A stretch of 64,000 nt of DNA from positions 62,001 through 126,000 of the forward strand of contig NC_014655.1 of the NCBI RefSeq assembly GCF_000166395.1, read 5' to 3'. Source of the DNA: Leadbetterella byssophila DSM 17132. GTDB lineage: Bacteria > Bacteroidota > Bacteroidia > Cytophagales > Spirosomataceae. Under the pieces are notes generated by a model that was not told where the DNA came from, made no database searches, and worked only from the letters and a program-made list of their open reading frames with translations. This document shows, piece by piece, positions 1,524 to 32,508 of this stretch. Position numbers and translations under genes: made by a program. Each line of letters starts with the position of its first letter. The first letter of the stretch is position 1.

Positions 1524-4001
1524 TTAGTTCAATTTCATTAGAGTGATAATGGCCACTATAGAACCTAAAGTTCCACCAAGCATAGTGATTAGACCGGAGA
1601 ATTGCGACAATTGTGCCACTGTAGTCTCTGTCTTAGCCGGTATCACAATCTCACTTCCCGGTACTATCTGAGGATGGAAACGTACGAATAAGAATTTTCT
1701 TGTTCTGTCTACACTTCCGTTCGGATAACGTACATAAGCGCTTCCTTTCGCAGATTTTTTAGTGAATCCACCTGAAGCTGAAATATAATCCAAGAAGTTA
1801 TTTGCCTTATTGTATTTTACGGTAGTAGGGTACAATACTTCTCCTTCAATTCTAACGGTTTGCAGTTTCTTAGGGATAACTATTTCATCCCCATCTTGAA
1901 GAATGATGTCTAAGCTCTTATCGTTTGGATTAGCTAGGATCTTTCTTAGTTCAACTCCTATGTCCTCATTGATATAAGAATCTGCTACTTCTCCTTCTGT
2001 AGTTACAGTAGTTAGTGTTCCAGGAGTTTTTGTGCTGTCATCCAGTCCTTTGGTAGTCTTAACTTTACTGATGTTTAGGCTATTCAAAGTTTCTTCTCTC
2101 TTCTGTCTTTGTCTTTCACTAAGTAGTGTTTTTCTCAAAAGAGTGGCTCCCTCAGGATAAGCTAAATCCGTCAATCCACCAGCCCTTTGGATCAGCCTGG
2201 AAATGCCTTCGTCTTTGTATTCCAAACCGTAAATTCCCGGCATCAATACTTCACCTGAGATCTTTACGAAATTTTGTTTTTCGTAATTAGGAGATGTTCT
2301 TACCAGGATTTCATCGTAAGGAAGCAAAACTATACTTTCTTGAGACTCCACTAATGTTAAATCCGGACGCATGCTGAACTGTATGATGTCAGCAATCTGC
2401 GCATCTGACTGTTTAGGGTCTATGTTTCTTTTTCTTCTAACTATTTCAATTCTCGACAAGGATGCTGCCTCTGTTAAACCACCTACACGAACGATCACGT
2501 CTTGTACCGTCATGTCTTTAACATAAGGTAAATCAATTCCTTCATTGGCTTCAGGATGGTTAACAGCACCACGGATACGAATGACGGATTGTTCTGTCAA
2601 TTCGAAGACACTTGGAACCATTACTTGATCTAACCTCTGAAGTTTGATATCGTCTGCCCTTCCTTCTAAAATATCATGGTAGTTAACGGAGATATTAGAG
2701 ATGGATAGGTCATTATTAGTACGGTTGATATTTATTCTACCTTGTAGTGATTCTTCTTTCAGGCCACTTGCTGACTCAATTAGTTTGGTCAAAGTAGGGT
2801 TTGAATCTAATGAATACTCACCCGGACGGAAGATGGCTCCAGAGATGGTCACTACGTTTTGGATACGATCCAATACTTTCTCTATAACCAAAGAGTCACC
2901 CATAAATACTTTTTCTTGAGCAAAACTGTCCTTGTTTACATTAACAATCTTCCTTTCGCTTGAAGTATTTCTATAGATTTTTACGATATCAGAAAAGGCA
3001 TATTGGTTAAAGCCTCCGGCGTATTTCAATAAATCAGCAAGCGTTTCTCCTGGTTTGATTTCGAATAATCCGGTTCTTTTTGTTTGGCCTGTAATAGCTA
3101 CTCTGGAGATAAATGGTCCTACATGTACACGGTCTTGGTCTTTTAGTAGTACATCACTGCTAGAGTATCCTTTGGTCAAGAATTCATAAACATCAAAATG
3201 CGCAATTTCTCTGTTTCCGCGGATTAAAACGATATCCCTGTAGGTGCCTATCTCATTCGGTCCTCCTGATACATATAGGGCCGCCATCAAATTACTGAAG
3301 GAAGTTAGCGTAAAGGTACCTGGAGCTACAACTTCCCCACTTACGGTAACTTTTATGGTGCGGAATCCCGTTAAAGATACCCGAACAAAGGTATTCCCCG
3401 ATTTGATTCCTGTATACGTTTTAGAAAGTGCAGCTGTGATTTTCTCTGTAGCCGTCTCCATGTTTAGACCGCTAACGGAAACTATGCCGCTTTTTTCTAG
3501 AATGATATAGCCGTCAGGATTTACTTTTAAGGTCTTTTGTACATTCTGAGAATATCCATAAACCACAACCTCTAGCTCATCTCCTGGTCCTAGAACATAA
3601 TTATTGGGTGTAGCTATATTGATAGCTTGAGTCACATCAAATTTGGAATTAGCAAATAAACTGCTTCCGTAAGTCCTTCTGATGATGCTTGCTCTAGCTT
3701 CATCTGCTGCTATCTCTGCTTCTCTGGATAAACGGTAAGTTTCTTCTCTGTCTATAGCATCCGCATCTTCGTCAGTCAGTACCAGTTCTCGTGCTTCCGT
3801 AGTGGCAGGAGCCGGTATTCTTCCGGGAGTAGTGGTGGTCCTGTTCTGTTGAGGAACCACTTTGTTAGGGTTTTCAGTTGCTTTGGAGGTCGTCTCTTTT
3901 TTCTCCTGCCCCATTGTGGCAGACATGAAGGTCAGATTCAATAATAAAATTAAAACTGCCTTTAGATTTAAATTTGTCTTCCTAACTTTGAACAATTTCA
4001 T
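1524..4001 (-). CDS. SLBB-domain outer-membrane polysaccharide export protein (Wza/GumB-like)
   Basis: From the ATG at 4001 the product is 825 residues. It has a signal peptide (positively charged start, hydrophobic core, cut near residue 31), a Thr/Pro-rich linker, a polysaccharide export domain starting with GPGDELEVVVYG near residue 137, then a series of SLBB-type beta-grasp repeats (for example VTISGAIFRPGEYSL, VRIRGAVNHPE, VKISGEVLMPGIYGLE, VRIEGEVLYPTTVKY) and a C-terminal hydrophobic helix. It should form the outer-membrane or periplasmic conduit for an exopolysaccharide or capsule. An in-frame ATG at 4073 would add 24 residues, but it lies upstream of a good -7 box at 4033-4040, so 4001 is preferred. 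First gene of the export operon. Confidence 0.88.
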   Translation of the reverse strand: MKLFKVRKTNLNLKAVLILLLNLTFMSATMGQEKKETTSKATENPNKVVPQQNRTTTTPGRIPAPATTEARELVLTDEDADAIDREETYRLSREAEIAADEARASIIRRTYGSSLFANSKFDVTQAINIATPNNYVLGPGDELEVVVYGYSQNVQKTLKVNPDGYIILEKSGIVSVSGLNMETATEKITAALSKTYTGIKSGNTFVRVSLTGFRTIKVTVSGEVVAPGTFTLTSFSNLMAALYVSGGPNEIGTYRDIVLIRGNREIAHFDVYEFLTKGYSSSDVLLKDQDRVHVGPFISRVAITGQTKRTGLFEIKPGETLADLLKYAGGFNQYAFSDIVKIYRNTSSERKIVNVNKDSFAQEKVFMGDSLVIEKVLDRIQNVVTISGAIFRPGEYSLDSNPTLTKLIESASGLKEESLQGRININRTNNDLSISNISVNYHDILEGRADDIKLQRLDQVMVPSVFELTEQSVIRIRGAVNHPEANEGIDLPYVKDMTVQDVIVRVGGLTEAASLSRIEIVRRKRNIDPKQSDAQIADIIQFSMRPDLTLVESQESIVLLPYDEILVRTSPNYEKQNFVKISGEVLMPGIYGLEYKDEGISRLIQRAGGLTDLAYPEGATLLRKTLLSERQRQKREETLNSLNISKVKTTKGLDDSTKTPGTLTTVTTEGEVADSYINEDIGVELRKILANPNDKSLDIILQDGDEIVIPKKLQTVRIEGEVLYPTTVKYNKANNFLDYISASGGFTKKSAKGSAYVRYPNGSVDRTRKFLFVRFHPQIVPGSEIVIPAKTETTVAQLSQFSGLITMLGGTLGSIVAIITLMKLN

Positions 4002-4032
4002 TTGATGCGATTTCCCTGTGAATAAGAAAGTA

Positions 4033-4040
4033 CAAAAATA
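4033..4040 (-). promoter_or_regulatory. -7 box of the polysaccharide export operon
   Basis: The minus strand reads TATTTTTG, a match to the Bacteroidota TAnnTTTG element, 31 nt before the ATG at 4001. No clear TTG is seen at the usual 19-21 bp upstream. A start of transcription near 4027 would exclude the longer ATG at 4073. Confidence 0.5.
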
Positions 4041-4098
4041 AGAGAAGAAACTGAATAAATTAGAACTTTGCATTTAAAAGATAATTGAGTAGATATTT

Positions 4099-4106
4099 TA
4101 CTTTTG
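4099..4106 (+). promoter_or_regulatory. -7 box upstream of parE
   Basis: TACTTTTG matches TAnnTTTG and lies 33 nt before the parE ATG. A good -33 TTG is not visible at the expected spacing, so this rests on the -7 element alone. Confidence 0.45.
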
Positions 4107-4139
4107 TAAACGATTTACAAAGGGGATTTAATATTAGAT

Positions 4140-6023
4140 ATGGCTGAGAATAATTACGACGAGAGTAGTATACGATCGCTGGACTGGAAAGAGCACATAC
4201 GCTTGAGGCCAGGTATGTACATAGGTAAATTAGGCGATGGTTCGGCCCCGGATGACGGGATTTACGTCCTACTTAAAGAGGTAATAGATAACTGTATAGA
4301 CGAATATGCCATGGGACATGGTAAGGCTATAGAAGTATCTATTGATGAGGGTAAAGTGTCCGTTCGTGATTATGGTAGAGGTATTCCATTAGGAAAGGTG
4401 GTAGATGTAGTATCTAAAATTAATACCGGTGCAAAGTATGATTCAAAAGCCTTTCAAAAGGCAGTAGGTCTAAATGGGGTGGGTACCAAAGCAGTGAATG
4501 CCTTGTCATCCTATTTTAAGGTTACTGCGGTTCGGGAAGGTGAGATGAAAACTGCAGAATTTGAAAGAGGTGTACTGATATCTGAGTCTGAAATCGAAAA
4601 GACAGATGCTAAGAACGGTACCCATGTGATATTTGAACCTGATAATACCGTTTTCAAGAATTATCACTTCATAGGTCAATACATAGAAAACATGATCTGG
4701 AATTACTGTTACCTCAATTCCGGACTTTCTATTTACCTTAACAGGAAGAAGTTTTATTCGGCTAATGGTTTATTAGATCTTCTTTTGCGAAAAACCGACG
4801 AGTCTTCCCTGCGTTATCCTATTATCCACTTAAAAGGAGAGGATATTGAAATGGCGCTGACCCACGGTAACCAGTATGGGGAAGAATACTACTCCTTTGT
4901 GAATGGCCAAAATACCACTCAGGGGGGAACTCACCTGTCTGCCTTCAAGGAGGCCATTGTAAAAACAGTAAGAGATCATTATGGTAAGGATTATGCCTCT
5001 GAAGATGTTCGTCAGTCAATCATTGGCGCCATTGCAGTTCGTATTCAAGAACCTGTTTTTGAATCTCAAACCAAAACGAAGCTAGGGTCGAACAATATTA
5101 GCTTAGACGAGAATGCTCCAACGGTCAGGACGTTTGTGAATGACTTTGTGAAGGAACATTTGGATAATTATCTACATATGCATCCGGACATTAAGGATGC
5201 GCTTAAACGTAGAATAGAGCAGTCGGAAAGAGAGAGAAAAGAATTAGCCGGTGTAAAGAAGATAGCGAATGAAAGAGCTAAAAAGGCTAACCTTCACAAC
5301 CGTAAACTTAGAGATTGTAAATACCATTTAACAGATGAGAAGTTTGAAGGAAGGCTTGATACTATGCTTTTTATTACGGAGGGTGACTCAGCTTCAGGTT
5401 CCATCACGAAAGCTAGAAACCCAGAAACTCAGGCTGTTTTCAGCTTAAGAGGAAAGCCTTTGAACTGTTATGGTCTAAGTAAGAAGGTAGTGTATGAAAA
5501 CGAAGAGTTTAACCTTTTGCAGCACGCTTTGGATATAGAAAACGGTATAGAAACCTTGCGCTACAATCAAATCGTTATAGCCACAGACGCTGACGTGGAT
5601 GGTTCACACATTCGTTTGTTGCTTTTGACTTTCTTCTTACAATTCTTCCCGGATTTAGTTAGAGAAGGTCATTTGTTTATCCTTCAAACTCCTTTGTTCA
5701 GGGTTAGAAATAAGAAAGAAACCATCTACTGTTACTCTGACGAAGAGAAGCAAATGGCTATAAATAAACTAGGAGGCAAACCCGAGATAACTCGATTCAA
5801 GGGATTGGGAGAGATTTCTCCTCATGAATTTGAAGGATTTATCAATAAGGACATCAAGTTAGATCCGGTTATCTTGGAGAAGGAATCTACTATTCCTAAG
5901 TTGCTTTCCTATTATATGGGTAAGAACACTCCTGAGCGACAAGGATTTATCATTGATAACCTGATCATAGAGCAAGACATCCTGGAGGATAAAGAGGTGG
6001 AGATTGTGGATGAAGAGATTTAA
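4140..6023 (+). CDS. parE: DNA topoisomerase IV subunit B (ParE)
   Basis: This is the ATPase and Toprim subunit of topoisomerase IV, which unlinks daughter chromosomes. The 627-residue protein starts with the RPGMYIG motif and has the GHKL ATPase motifs ([29 protein letters not shown]), the transducer QTKTKLG motif, and the Toprim acidic residues in TEGDSASG (Glu414) and DADVDGSHI. The compact C-terminus and length fit ParE rather than the longer GyrB. The partner parC is not next to it; the next gene is pheA, 2 nt downstream. Confidence 0.93.
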
Positions 6024-6025
6024 AC

Positions 6026-7099
6026 ATGAAAATTGAAGAAGTTAGAAAAGAAATTGATCAGATTGATGAACAATTGATCAAACTCCTGAATGAACGCATG
6101 AGATGGGTTCAAAAAGTAGGAGAAATTAAACGTGAGACCAAAGGCTCCATCTATAGACCCGAACGTGAGAAGTGGATCGTGGAAAAGATGATCAGTTTAT
6201 CAGACGGACCATTAAATGCCTCTGCTATAGAAGCAATATTCTTAGAGATCTTTGCTGCTGCTCGAAACATTGAGTTACCGGAAAGAGTGGCATACCTGGG
6301 ACCTGAAGGAAGTTTTACTCACCAGGCTGCAGAGAGTAGATTCGGTGCAGTTTCAGAATATATGACCCTTCCTACTATCCGTTCAGTCTTCGAGGCAGTA
6401 GAGACGGAAAGGGCAAGATTTGGGGTGATTCCCATTGAAAATAACCAAGAAGGGATAGTTTATGAAACGGTGGATTTGCTTAGCGCTACTGACGTAAACA
6501 TTGCAGCTGAACTTAAGATTCCTGTACATTTTACCTTAGCCACAGAGGCGGAAAACCCTGCGAAAATCAAGAGGATTTATTCCAAAGACATCGCCTTCCG
6601 TCAATGTCGCGGGTTCCTGAACAAGTACTTTGAACAGCATAATCCTGAAGAAATTCAAGTAGAATCTACTTCCAAGGCTGCCAGATTAGCCGCTGCGGAT
6701 CCGGAATCTGCGGCTATCTGCAGTGAGATTGCAGCAAAACTTTTCCGTTTACCTGTACTGTTTCATAATATTGAGGATAATAGTAATAATAGAACCCGTT
6801 TTATTATCCTTAGTAAGGACTATGAGAATCAACCTTCAGGTAATGATAAAACTACCATCGTAGCAAAATTACCGAAGACAGATGAAGCAGGTTCTTTGGC
6901 CAAGTTTCTTCAAGATTTTAGGAAAGGCAATATTAATTTGACCAAGATAGAAAGTAGACCTTATAAAGGGAGTGAAGACTTTAATTTCTGGTTCTTTATA
7001 GAATTCTTAGGCTATTATAAGGATGAGAATTTCCAAAAGATCCTGAAGAAACACGGAGATTATATCAAGGTGTTAGGTTCTTATGTAAGAAATGCCTGA
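6026..7099 (+). CDS. pheA: Bifunctional chorismate mutase / prephenate dehydratase
   Basis: Converts chorismate to prephenate and then to phenylpyruvate in phenylalanine synthesis. The 357-residue protein has an AroQ-type chorismate mutase domain (about 1-85, starting with the helix IEEVRKEIDQIDEQLIKLLNER), a prephenate dehydratase domain (from VAYLGPEGSFTH at about 93, with GVIPIENNQEG and the NRTRF motif), and a C-terminal ACT domain with the KIESRP motif that normally binds phenylalanine for feedback inhibition. It starts 2 nt after parE, suggesting co-transcription, and ends 1 nt before a convergent gene, with no terminator between them. Confidence 0.92.
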   Translation: MKIEEVRKEIDQIDEQLIKLLNERMRWVQKVGEIKRETKGSIYRPEREKWIVEKMISLSDGPLNASAIEAIFLEIFAAARNIELPERVAYLGPEGSFTHQAAESRFGAVSEYMTLPTIRSVFEAVETERARFGVIPIENNQEGIVYETVDLLSATDVNIAAELKIPVHFTLATEAENPAKIKRIYSKDIAFRQCRGFLNKYFEQHNPEEIQVESTSKAARLAAADPESAAICSEIAAKLFRLPVLFHNIEDNSNNRTRFIILSKDYENQPSGNDKTTIVAKLPKTDEAGSLAKFLQDFRKGNINLTKIESRPYKGSEDFNFWFFIEFLGYYKDENFQKILKKHGDYIKVLGSYVRNA

Positions 7100-22509: not shown

Positions 22510-24449
22510 GTGTGCCCAGCATGTGCAATAACTCTAGGGTGTAAGTCCCGAACACGCCTTTACAGTGGGAAGTGTTAGCTTATGACAAGGGTGTCCACCG
22601 TGAGGTGGAATCTGAAGGAAGTCTGAGGCAAAACCTCGATCCGACGAACAGAAACTACATACAAGGCCGCAAGTGTTGGGTGAGGCTGCAAAACAAGCCA
22701 AAGCCCTAAACTGTACGGAAACACTATGGTAAATGTAGCGGATATATGAGGTGAAAGTTATTGTTCTTACCTGGGGAGATCTGACTAAACTCTGTCAAAG
22801 GTATACGCGAATGCCCGCGAAGAAACATATAGCAGAATAATAATGCTAGTATGCTTTAGTCAGAAGTCAGCAGAGGACATAGTACCCTGCTTCTCTACTT
22901 TATACAGGGGAAGGTCTGAATGTTAGAATGGCAAAGGAACCATGAAGTTTATGACGAAGTGTTAAAAGCCGAACCACATAAGAGAACTGCTTGCATGAGG
23001 GTAGGTCGGAAACTGATAGTAAAATGCAAGAGGAGCTTAGCTGAGTCGTGCAACGAAGTGGACACAATGCCTGAGGTTTTTTTTTAGTAATACTATGTTG
23101 GAAGAGATATTACACATCCGAAATGTCAAACACGCAGTTGATCGTGTCATCTCTAATGGAGGTGCTAGCGGAGTTGATGGTATGCAGATCGATAATCTTC
23201 GTGACTACCTTAACACGCACTGGCAATCCCTGCGATCGGATATTCTCTCTGGCACTTACCGCCCACAAGCTGTTCGGAAAGTAGAGATTCCCAAAGCAAG
23301 TGGCGGCAAGCGTATGCTGGGTATCCCAACGGTCATCGACCGTGTTATTCAGCAAAGCATTTCCCAATGGCTTGGGTTAAAGTATGAGGGTGATTTTCAC
23401 GATAACAGCTACGGCTTCCGTCCGAATCGTAATGCTCATCAGGCCGTCATTAAAGCGCAAGAGTATCTGAACTTGGGCTACACGTGGGTCGTTGAACTTG
23501 ATTTGGAACAATTCTTCGATCAAGTGAACCACGACATACTGATGCATCTTTTGAGCAAGAAGATTACGGATCGTCGAGTCCTAGCGCTGATCGGGAAATA
23601 CCTTCGTTGTGGGATTATGGATCATGGTCTTGAACAAAAGCGAACCAAGGGCACACCACAGGGCAGTCCTTTAAGTCCACTTTTGTCAAACATCATCCTG
23701 AACGAACTGGATACGGAACTCAGCTCCCGTGGACATCGATTTGTACGTTATGCGGATGACTGTAGTATCTACGCGAAGAGCAATAAATCCGCCACTCGTA
23801 TTATGCGCAACATCACCAGTTACATCGAATCTACACTAAAACTGAAAGTGAACCGTGAAAAGAGTAAGGTAAGCAAACCTTCCCAAAGTAGTTTACTCGG
23901 CTTTAGTTTCTTCAAAACTCAAGGAGATTGGCAGATTCGTATCTCTGCAAAGAGTATCGAACGAATCCGAGAGAAGTTACGTCAAAATACTCGACGTAAT
24001 ACAGCTACTCCTATGCATGAGCGACTGACTAAACTACGGCAAATTATTCACGGCTGGGTGGATTACTTTCGTATAGCAACGAATAAGAAGGTGATGGTAA
24101 CACTAGATGAACTAGTGCGAAGACGCTTGCGTGTTCTGCTTTGGAAGCAATGGAAGACCGCAGGTAATCGAATTCGGAACTTAATGAAACTGGGAGCCAA
24201 ACGCTGGCTTGCCTACCAACATGCGAACACCCGTAAATCCTATACTCGGACAGGGACAAGCCCTATCGTTCAAACAACGCTAACAAACTCATACTTTACT
24301 AAATTAGGTTACGAAGGATTTGCAGACTACTATTACTGGAGAACAACGCATCAAACGACGTTATTCTAACAAACCGCCTTGGTACGGATCCGTATGCCGG
24401 GTGGTGTGAGAGGACAGATAGGGAAATAATCCCTATCTTCCTACTCGAT
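22510..24449 (+). mobile_element. Group II intron (IIC-type), copy 1
   Basis: A 1940-bp element starting with GTGTG (group II GUGYG 5' end) and ending in CGAT. The first ~585 nt are structured RNA, then the reverse transcriptase ORF, then domain V at about 24373-24405 (ACCGCCTTGG ... GGGTGGT hairpin with a GATC loop and a CGC triad) and domain VI (24408-24446) with a bulged A at 24443, the likely branch point 7 nt from the 3' end. It lies 3' of a terminator hairpin, the site preference of group IIC introns. By reading, it matches the copy at 43327-45266 base for base, including length. Confidence 0.9.
23095..24369 (+). CDS. ltrA: Group II intron reverse transcriptase/maturase, copy 1
   Basis: The 424-residue intron-encoded protein has reverse transcriptase blocks (GGASGVDGM, a GIPTVIDRVIQQ motif, YGFRPNRNAHQAV, the TPQGSPLSPLLSNI motif and the RYADDCSIY catalytic Asp pair) and a maturase X/GIIM domain (HGWVDYFRI, the RRRLRVLLWKQW motif). 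It ends without the DNA-binding and HNH endonuclease domains, as in class C introns. It supports splicing and target-primed insertion of its own intron. The ORF sits inside intron domain IV and has richer GC and different codon use from the neighbours, consistent with a horizontally moving element. Confidence 0.93.
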   Translation: MLEEILHIRNVKHAVDRVISNGGASGVDGMQIDNLRDYLNTHWQSLRSDILSGTYRPQAVRKVEIPKASGGKRMLGIPTVIDRVIQQSISQWLGLKYEGDFHDNSYGFRPNRNAHQAVIKAQEYLNLGYTWVVELDLEQFFDQVNHDILMHLLSKKITDRRVLALIGKYLRCGIMDHGLEQKRTKGTPQGSPLSPLLSNIILNELDTELSSRGHRFVRYADDCSIYAKSNKSATRIMRNITSYIESTLKLKVNREKSKVSKPSQSSLLGFSFFKTQGDWQIRISAKSIERIREKLRQNTRRNTATPMHERLTKLRQIIHGWVDYFRIATNKKVMVTLDELVRRRLRVLLWKQWKTAGNRIRNLMKLGAKRWLAYQHANTRKSYTRTGTSPIVQTTLTNSYFTKLGYEGFADYYYWRTTHQTTLF

Positions 24450-30595: not shown

Positions 30596-30733
30596 ATGGA
30601 ACCTGTAGTAAAAAAGAGGTACACGAAACCTGTATTATTGAAGCATGGAATGCTTAGGAAATTGACTCTAAAATCGGGAAGTGCAGTAGATTTCACTGAG
30701 CCATCTAGTTCTGATTGGGGAGGGGAAGATTAA
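30596..30733 (+). CDS. Lasso-type RiPP precursor peptide (candidate)
   Basis: A 45-residue peptide whose N-terminal half has the lasso leader pattern Y-x2-P-x-L-x3-G-x5-T: Tyr9, Pro12, Leu14, Gly18, Thr24 (KKRYTKPVLLKHGMLRKLT). The remaining part is small, acidic and Ser/Gly-rich. If the core starts at Gly28 it reads GSAVDFTE then PSSSDWGGED, so an 8-residue ring between Gly28 and Glu35 is possible, but Thr would then be at -4 instead of the usual -2. A core starting at Lys26 would fit Thr at -2 but not the usual Gly1. The asparagine-synthetase-like cyclase begins 2 nt after the stop. Core boundaries are inference. Confidence 0.65.
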   Translation: MEPVVKKRYTKPVLLKHGMLRKLTLKSGSAVDFTEPSSSDWGGED

Positions 30734-30735
30734 TT

Positions 30736-32508
30736 ATGCTTCTGGATCTCTATTTTCTAGATAGCATTTCGTCTTTTTATTCTCACTTAGGTATAAATGT
30801 TTGGTTTAAAGGCGATAATTCTAATCTCGGATCTTTAAACAGGTACGAGGGTGATAGTTGTGAAGAAAAAATAATCCATGCATTTTTAGCTGTAAATGAA
30901 AGTTGTTTTAAAGAATTAAAACACGAGTTTTTATTGGTTTTGCAAACAGAAGATTGCACCTATTTGGTCAGAGACCGATTTGGGGTGCAATCTTTGTATT
31001 TTTGCCAAGAGTCGAATAAAATTACTGTTTCCGATAATTTAAGGATTCTTGGAAAGGGTAAATCTCCAGATTCGATAGAGGTATACAATTATATTAATTT
31101 TTCGATTTCTAAAGAGTCCAGTATTAATTCTGGGACTTTTTTTTCTGAAGTATATCAAGTCCCGCCTTCATATTATGTTAAGATAGATAATGATGGCAAT
31201 AAATTATTTAGAAGCTACTATAGTGCGGTACCTAAACCTTTTTTTATACATTCTAGCTCGGACGTGTTTAGGGACTTATTGACTAAATCTATTAAGCGAG
31301 GTCTAGTAAATTCTCAAAAGATAGGTTCACATTTAAGTGGTGGTCTGGATTCTTCAGTAGTTACGACACTTTTAAGGCATGTAGTTTCAGAAGATATTTC
31401 ATGCTACTACTATGATAGTGGTGACACAAGTCATCGTGATTTGGATTATGCTAGATTAGTAGCTGATAATTTGGACCTGCCACTGCACGTGGTCAATACT
31501 AGTGGGGAAAATATATTTACCCATCAGAGGTGGTTGTGCGAAAGGACAGGTTTTCCCGAGGTTTTTATTCTGCCATCAACTACACATATAGAACTGAGCG
31601 AGGAATTACGTGAAAAAGGAATCAGTCGAATGTTTACTGGTATAGATGGTGATTCTGTAGTCGGGCATGGGCTAGGTTATTTGCAAGATTTAAAGTCAGA
31701 TGGGGATTGGGAGAAGTATTTGACTTTATTTGTTGAAAATTTTTTGGCTAGAGAATATACTAGTATTACACTTGATGCTTATAAAAAGAAACTTATTGTC
31801 AAGGAGGTATTAACATTAGTTAGGAAAAATGACTGGAGGTCTATTGCTGCCCTTTTGAAATCAGCAAATCTGCTGTGGGGGTATGTTCCAGGTTCTTATT
31901 TAAAAGTATTATTAAATAAAGTAATATCGAATGTGTTCAGTAAGCTTGATTTGGTGCCAGATCCATCATTGCTGAATTATTCTATAGGTGAATTATCAGC
32001 TGAATCTTATTATGATATATACGATATAAATAATAGAGAATTATTGGAAAATTTCCGGGCGGTTATTAATGGTAGTTATCCTTATTCTTTTAATCAATTT
32101 AATGAAATTTCTCGTTTCTATAATTTTGAGTACAAGCATCCTTTTTTTGATCAAGAACTTTTTGAATTTTGCCTAGGTGTACCTAATGAAATACGATTTG
32201 GGGGTGGTAAAACGAGATGGGTTATGAGGGAAGCAATGAATGAGCTTTTGCCTCAGAAGCTATTAAATCGTACAACAAAGGACGATTTTTCATACTATTT
32301 AATAAGTTCTTTTATATCTCTTTGGAATTCTAATTCCGAGTTCTTTCTTGATCATAGCAGCCTTTGGCATTGGGTAAATAAAAAGGAATTTATGAGGGGG
32401 ATTTCATATGTTATAAAGAAGGGGCCTCATGTTAAATCAAACTCTCTCCTCGCACGAAAATTAATTAGGGTCTTGTATCTAGGTATTTGGTTAGATACTA
32501 TTCAATAA
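30736..32508 (+). CDS. Asparagine synthetase-like enzyme, candidate lasso peptide cyclase
   Basis: The 590-residue protein resembles class B asparagine synthetases: a degenerate N-terminal glutaminase-like domain (RDRFGVQSLYF retained) and a C-terminal ATP-pyrophosphatase domain with the PP-loop SGGLDSS (residues 201-207), TGIDGDSVVGHG, and YKHPFFDQELFEFCLGVP. There is no Cys at position 2, the glutaminase nucleophile, so it should not hydrolyse glutamine. Lasso cyclases (McjC/LarC type) have this same build and activate a side-chain carboxylate to close the ring. A TTG at 30715 in frame would overlap the precursor; the ATG at 30736 is preferred. No leader protease, RRE protein or exporter gene is adjacent. 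Confidence 0.75.
   Translation: MLLDLYFLDSISSFYSHLGINVWFKGDNSNLGSLNRYEGDSCEEKIIHAFLAVNESCFKELKHEFLLVLQTEDCTYLVRDRFGVQSLYFCQESNKITVSDNLRILGKGKSPDSIEVYNYINFSISKESSINSGTFFSEVYQVPPSYYVKIDNDGNKLFRSYYSAVPKPFFIHSSSDVFRDLLTKSIKRGLVNSQKIGSHLSGGLDSSVVTTLLRHVVSEDISCYYYDSGDTSHRDLDYARLVADNLDLPLHVVNTSGENIFTHQRWLCERTGFPEVFILPSTTHIELSEELREKGISRMFTGIDGDSVVGHGLGYLQDLKSDGDWEKYLTLFVENFLAREYTSITLDAYKKKLIVKEVLTLVRKNDWRSIAALLKSANLLWGYVPGSYLKVLLNKVISNVFSKLDLVPDPSLLNYSIGELSAESYYDIYDINNRELLENFRAVINGSYPYSFNQFNEISRFYNFEYKHPFFDQELFEFCLGVPNEIRFGGGKTRWVMREAMNELLPQKLLNRTTKDDFSYYLISSFISLWNSNSEFFLDHSSLWHWVNKKEFMRGISYVIKKGPHVKSNSLLARKLIRVLYLGIWLDTIQ

Follow-up and report, generated by a model that had tools for sequence, protein, structure and literature searches.

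A probable lasso peptide precursor and cyclase in Leadbetterella byssophila, with the other maturation genes dispersed and type IX secretion genes alongside

The DNA examined here (the window) is a stretch of 64,000 nucleotides from the single 4.06 Mb contig of Leadbetterella byssophila DSM 17132 (NC_014655.1, genome G000 of our sample), and the element in question is a pair of genes, a 45-residue open reading frame (ORF), A, and an asparagine-synthetase-like gene, C. We read A as the precursor of a lasso peptide and C as its macrolactam cyclase, in a pathway that is not clustered and whose product has a surface role; to this interpretation we give a probability of about 0.8. Genes for the PqqD-like protein B1 and the transglutaminase-like protease B2 lie side by side in another part of the genome, the same gene content recurs among related genomes of the family Spirosomataceae, and many of the precursor and cyclase genes there have genes of the type IX secretion system (T9SS) as neighbours. 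This dispersal and the T9SS company make the system a variant of lasso peptide biosynthesis that appears to be unreported.

Comparison with relatives identified A as a conserved gene. A leave-one-out profile built from the 15 other precursors recovered the window ORF at E=2.5e-14 among 734 window ORFs (runner-up 0.29), and on this result a chance ORF was rejected; the leader profile with which the relatives' precursors were found included the window sequence, and the leave-one-out profile is a separate test. Across the alignment of 16 precursors, that of the window included, Tyr9, Pro12, Leu14, Gly18, Thr24, Gly28 and Ser29 are invariant, the first five of which had been picked out as leader residues by a first-pass annotation made from the sequence alone. 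That annotation had also placed the peptide 2 nt before C and had named lack of conservation of the small ORF as grounds for giving up its interpretation. The coding part of A (30596-30730) is followed by the stop codon at 30731-30733, the ATG of C stands at 30736, 2 nt past it, and the precursor is conserved among relatives. The YxxPxL...G leader, Thr(-2) and an acidic residue at core position 7-9 that characterize lasso precursors are all present in A (Asp32 being core position 7), which touches three NCBIfam lasso precursor models and remains below the cut-off of each.

The protein encoded by C matched Asn_synthase of Pfam (1.3e-34), and the intact SGGLDSS and the lack of Cys2 described in the first-pass annotation were both seen. 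An ordinary asparagine synthetase or glycan amidotransferase preceded by a chance ORF would agree with the matches of C to Asn_synthase and to TIGR01536, and grouping of the enzyme with ordinary asparagine synthetases had been named beforehand as evidence against a lasso function. C lacks Cys2, however, its TIGR01536 score of 146 bits is below the cut-off of 267, and in a tree of 29 sequences it fell outside the 100/100 group formed by six Cys2-bearing AsnB-like enzymes. With a precursor ORF so far from chance this explanation is hardly credible, and an ordinary asparagine synthetase was rejected for C. The place of C among the lasso-type rows of the tree is unsure. No second cyclase match was present in the genome at E<=0.001, and the matches returned by a PDB search were all weak (asparagine synthetase, beta-lactam synthetase, GMP synthase). 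When the GTDB collection was scanned with a cyclase query, no relative came up the first time; a second scan gave a single locus, that of Lacihabitans sp. LS3-19 (G001), which was identical to the query.

No B or D gene was found among the window ORFs around A and C, as the first-pass annotation had stated. It had proposed either B proteins encoded elsewhere or a variant ribosomally synthesized and post-translationally modified peptide (RiPP) with a different processing route, and had asked for a genome-wide search for a RiPP recognition element (PqqD-like) and a transglutaminase-like B protein. Both were found, next to each other: the PqqD (64 bits) and Transglut_core3 (37 bits) profiles matched two adjacent genes at ~3.80 Mb (L035), where a divergent kinase-like gene K, B1, B2 and a lipoprotein-like gene Lp (lipobox read by eye) lie in a row, and B2 scored above the NCBIfam lasso-B2 cut-off (54 vs 33 bits). 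The end of Lp is ~349 kb from the precursor when the contig is taken as a circle, and A, B and C are thus not clustered, clustering being common in lasso pathways and not defining. Since intact B1 and B2 occur in the same genome, the proposal that the B proteins are encoded elsewhere is supported. Two further places carry related genes. L036 (9243-11996, ~2.399 Mb) carries a further PqqD-like gene and a B2-like ORF of reduced length, together with a sulfotransferase, a short APS-kinase ORF and K-like fragments, and has the appearance of a lasso set in decay. The other, L215 (1186-2295, ~2.70 Mb), is unlinked to both A-C and B1-B2 and encodes an NTP_transf_5 nucleotidyltransferase, of a family that adjoins K in relatives.

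Co-occurrence was determined for 37 Spirosomataceae genomes (G000-G036), with B2 counted above the Pfam cut-off and the cyclase at E<=1e-15, a threshold set after seeing the data. B2 was present in 16/16 genomes with C and in 2/21 without it (G031, G035), and precursor A in 15/16 versus 0/21, counts that are not corrected for kinship and come from genomes that are not independent. A two-gene RiPP type of its own, processed by another route without B proteins, would fit the absence of B next to A and C. It is made very improbable by the presence of B2 wherever C occurs in the family and by a standard leader that includes the B1 recognition motif, so that processing without B, the second proposal of the first-pass annotation, was rejected. 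The genus-level set divided in a similar manner, as 6/10 genomes combined A, C, B2 and Lp with two or more genes for C25 peptidases, while the other four had a single C25 gene and none of A, C, B2 and Lp (one of the four is only 77% complete). A sample of 247 genomes from the phylum was also searched with the precursor profile, and three matched: G000, G039 (likewise Spirosomataceae) and, weakly, G277.

Separated loci are common among these relatives. C and B2 are separated by ~3.2 Mb in G012 and by ~2.4 Mb in G030, in both cases within a single contig, and they lie on different contigs in eight genomes (G001, G007, G016, G018, G020, G023, G026, G028), which means only that they are not in one sequenced cluster. 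A, C, B1 and B2 occur together in G003, G004, G013 and G032, with C and B2 within ~8 kb. No precursor was detected by the leader profile around C in G001, G007, G030, G023 and G028, which have 4, 6, 3, 1 and 1 precursors elsewhere, respectively; several family genomes thus have their cyclase, their B1-B2-kinase set and their precursors, of which there are up to six, scattered over separate loci. Lp is found at C in relatives, where it often overlaps the end of C and adjoins a C25 peptidase gene, and it was near C in 13/15 precursor-bearing family genomes, the exceptions being G016 and G000, where it follows B2. Because Lp stands at the cyclase in relatives and after B2 in G000, it links the A-C locus to the B1-B2 locus. 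Lp relatives were present in 44/59 genomes, other families of the order included, and no B2 was found in those families.

In lasso leaders YxxPxL occupies positions -17 to -12 and Thr position -2 (PMC10368454; this and the other papers cited here are drawn on in part). Both registers point to Lys26 as the first core residue, and the predicted product is therefore a Lys1-Asp7 macrolactam with a seven-residue ring (KSGSAVD) and a 13-residue tail. Of 48 pattern matches three were set aside as outside the family or chance (L192, L197 and one of L188), and the remaining 45 distinct leader-core sequences have Lys1 in 40 and Ser4 in 43, with Asp at position 7 in 40 and at position 8 in the other five when counted from Thr(-2). 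According to the protein families concerned, B1, as the leader-binding protein, and B2 probably act in trans on the YxxPxL...G...T leader, with B2 expected to cut after Leu25, and C would probably activate Asp32 for bond formation with the alpha-amine of Lys26. Kinases of the HprK-like type are known to phosphorylate lasso precursors, the target being Ser3 in BsfA (PMC10368454) and the C-terminal Ser in paeninodin (PMC8498205), and by analogy Ser4 of the ring is a candidate site for phosphorylation by K, the putative HprK-like kinase encoded beside B1. Whether the ring is threaded cannot be read from a sequence, and an unthreaded, branched-cyclic macrolactam would agree with the divergence of C and with the shortness of the cores, which number 14 or 15 residues in 35/48 pattern matches. 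We consider such a product doubtful, since A, B1, B2 and C are all of lasso type and lasso rings of seven residues are known alongside those of eight and nine (PMC13352647).

The surface role that we propose is suggested by the genes that recur beside cyclases and precursors. Among the known T9SS sortases of the C25 type, PorU and PorU2, the window C25 peptidase belongs with the latter, as it scored 730 bits against the PorU2 model NF052324 (cut-off 450); canonical PorU was rejected for it, being a separate gene at 2.36 Mb (665 bits, cut-off 420). The PorU2 cut-off was also exceeded by nine C25 peptidases encoded at other cyclase loci, a Runella rosea plasmid among them, and a C25 gene was located no more than ~9 kb from C in 15/15 precursor-bearing family genomes, where PorU2 type was tested in 10 cyclase-locus peptidases (nine genomes and the plasmid) and the others were recognized by PF01364 only. 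The window peptidase keeps GHG and NGCGVG, which we take to be the catalytic His and Cys motifs of C25, and forms a long branch that joins the peptidases of other cyclase loci with 95/94 support, in a tree from which canonical PorU rows were excluded by the score filter, so that PorU and PorU2 were told apart by the family models. Large proteins homologous to the surface repeat protein S are encoded upstream of cargo-precursor pairs in L114, L042, L038 and L041, and the T9SS cargo protein P resembles the cargo adjoining relatives' precursors, partly through a shared C-terminal region. The order of surface repeat protein, T9SS cargo and C25 peptidase given in the first-pass annotation was borne out; its treatment of these genes as unrelated neighbours was not, as the comparison suggests a recurring lasso context instead.

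Neighbours of precursors were surveyed on a map of 37 precursors, through 43 proteins that comprise 42 same-strand neighbours of 35/37 precursors (C genes excluded) and window P; the neighbour of L187 is omitted and the L039 and L042 entries are partial. A T9SS sorting domain was found in 27/43 of these proteins by Pfam and in 27/43 by TIGR04183 of NCBIfam. For the 15 scattered precursors of G001, G007, G030, G023 and G028, PF18962 at E<0.01 was present in a neighbour of 10, with one more at 0.022 (L178). Only 26 to 48 PF18962 domains occur per whole genome (six genomes), and chance neighbours of this kind should therefore be rare; the binomial probability of 10/15 at 2% is 3e-14, a figure that depends on an estimated ~1% of genes with a sorting domain. 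In L172 and L183 the cargo gene shares 4 nt with the precursor gene. Repeated cargo-precursor units with near-identical cores, as if copied, were seen in L188, L189, L212 and L214 of G020 and in L209 of G032. A precursor-like ORF (core AGGSNSADV...) in L213 (6663-13001) lies upstream of Asn/Gln-rich repeat proteins that are curli-like by eye.

Judging from this gene context, the peptide probably acts at the cell surface with T9SS cargo, and Lp and PorU2 may take part. PorU attaches cargo at the cell surface. It is conceivable, if rather speculative, that the peptide is a surface tag for T9SS proteins and not a free antibiotic, PorU2 with the help of Lp joining the trimmed C-terminus of the cargo to it. 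Each precursor would then be made with its own cargo and matured by shared enzymes encoded elsewhere, and attachment could plausibly take place through the side-chain amine of Lys1, which would be free once the alpha-amine closes the ring.

The observations that weigh against our interpretation concern gene context in the first place. Genes for Lp, S and C25 are also present in genomes without lasso genes (S homologues in 17 genomes, 9/17 of them without a precursor), P is not adjacent to the window precursor, Pfam recognized no sorting domain next to four of the 15 scattered precursors (L170, L180, L181, L183), and no cargo-like neighbour was recognized by eye in L050, L053, L056 and L057. 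A close relative of one cyclase is located on the Runella rosea plasmid (L190; NZ_CP030852.1, 31979-57910), where a C25 peptidase (PorU2), an Lp relative (27% identity, E=8e-33), C, a 48-residue precursor and an ice-binding family protein were seen together and no B gene is named in the annotated 26 kb. Such a set on a plasmid, together with the unaccompanied genes, could mean that the lasso pathway stands while its T9SS neighbours are bystanders in mobile or fast-changing islands of surface-protein genes, the peptide having an ordinary role as an antibiotic or signal. We regard this as possible yet unlikely, given a PF18962 gene beside two thirds of the scattered precursors, which occupy different positions in five genomes, when whole genomes have so few such domains, a C25 gene near every C of the precursor-bearing genomes, and cores that are near-uniform.

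Divergence of the window proteins is the second point. The best NCBIfam match of C is the lasso cyclase model NF033535 (2.5e-46), at 158 bits with a cut-off of 525, and a relative's cyclase (L040) reaches 260 bits; C forms a long branch with at most 25% identity to any row of the tree, and its N-terminus is shorter than those of relatives. B1 finds its best match in the lasso PqqD model at 57.5 bits against a cut-off of 80, K matches HprK_rel_A at 1.9e-9 over ~54 residues (37 bits, cut-off 200), and the FGxNxYTP tail of multi-copy genomes is missing from the window core. A pathway that is real in relatives and here a rearranged, decaying remnant without a product would agree with a single precursor in the genome, the long branches of both C and the C25 peptidase, the split of A-C from B1-B2-Lp with Lp departed from C, and the broken appearance of the second set at 2.40 Mb. 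It is nevertheless quite unlikely, as A, C, B1, B2 and K are all open reading frames with their motifs present and separated loci are common among related genomes.

The features of the window are collected in Table 1. An ORF of 424 residues at 23095-24369 resembles, by eye, a group II intron reverse transcriptase.

Table 1. Positions of the lasso-type genes and their neighbours in the window
Feature	Position	Strand	Basis or remark
Lasso precursor A, 45 aa and stop	30596..30733	+	Leader 30596-30670 (residues 1-25)
Predicted core of A, K26-D45	30671-30730	+	Start from Thr(-2) and Tyr(-17) registers
C, asparagine-synthetase-like, putative macrolactam cyclase, 590 aa	30736..32508	+	SGGLDSS intact, no Cys2
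S, surface repeat protein, 1234 aa	32694..36398	+	Big_9 domain (Pfam)
P, T9SS cargo, 328 aa	36407..37393	+	Por_Secre_tail, PF18962 1e-10
PorU2-type C25 peptidase, 1065 aa	37626..40823	-	Peptidase_C25 7.4e-65; NF052324 730 bits

An ABC exporter (D) is frequent, though not universal, in lasso pathways. An exporter motif scan of 62 loci gave six matches, none of which by position adjoins A, C or B, and it missed at least the C39-type ABC gene of L189. At that locus (2462-6192, G020), a C39-type ABC exporter-like gene and an HlyD-like gene recognized by eye lie ~2 kb before a precursor, and this pair is the one exporter candidate seen near any precursor.

Genome mining that relies on clusters would miss or mis-score loci of this kind, because B is expected beside A and C, and a scattered precursor would pass for an unexplained short ORF. 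Several near-uniform cores per genome, many of them beside the gene of a secreted protein, sit poorly with the usual view of lasso peptides as diversified weapons. Should the T9SS link prove functional, lasso peptides would gain a cell-surface role, and PorU2 and Lp would gain a pathway.

Literature searches found no report that links PorU2 to lasso genes and no paper that combines 'lasso peptide' with 'type IX secretion', and the arrangement was not described in the parts consulted of the literature on lasso peptides in Bacteroidota or Cytophagales, HPr kinase and sortase, or in that on modified peptides and type IX secretion, subscription journals being mostly outside these searches. A putative lasso cluster is known from Amoebophilus asiaticus, of the same phylum Bacteroidota; it consists of four consecutive locus tags with homologues in alphaproteobacterial symbionts, and the accessible part of its description mentions no T9SS link (PMC8831229). 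The cebulassopins (2026), to go by the title in the reference list of PMC13352647, are products of a lasso pathway in a split operon. The paeninodin and Bradymonas bsf clusters, as far as the accessible parts of PMC10368454 and PMC8498205 describe them, share the YxxPxL leader, Thr(-2), B1, B2 and C with the system described here and have a kinase to which its putative K may correspond, and some clusters of this type carry a nucleotidyltransferase, as this genome does. Their genes are clustered, usually with an ABC exporter, whereas in L. byssophila A-C, B1-B2-K and the nucleotidyltransferase are found at three places and no adjacent exporter was seen. Unclustered lanthipeptide proteases (PMC8960859, in the portion available) offer a parallel from another RiPP class, as the leader protease there is also encoded away from the precursor and the modifying enzyme. 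In those lanthipeptides the protease alone is unclustered, whereas here the leader-binding protein, the protease and the putative kinase all lie apart, as do the precursors in some relatives.
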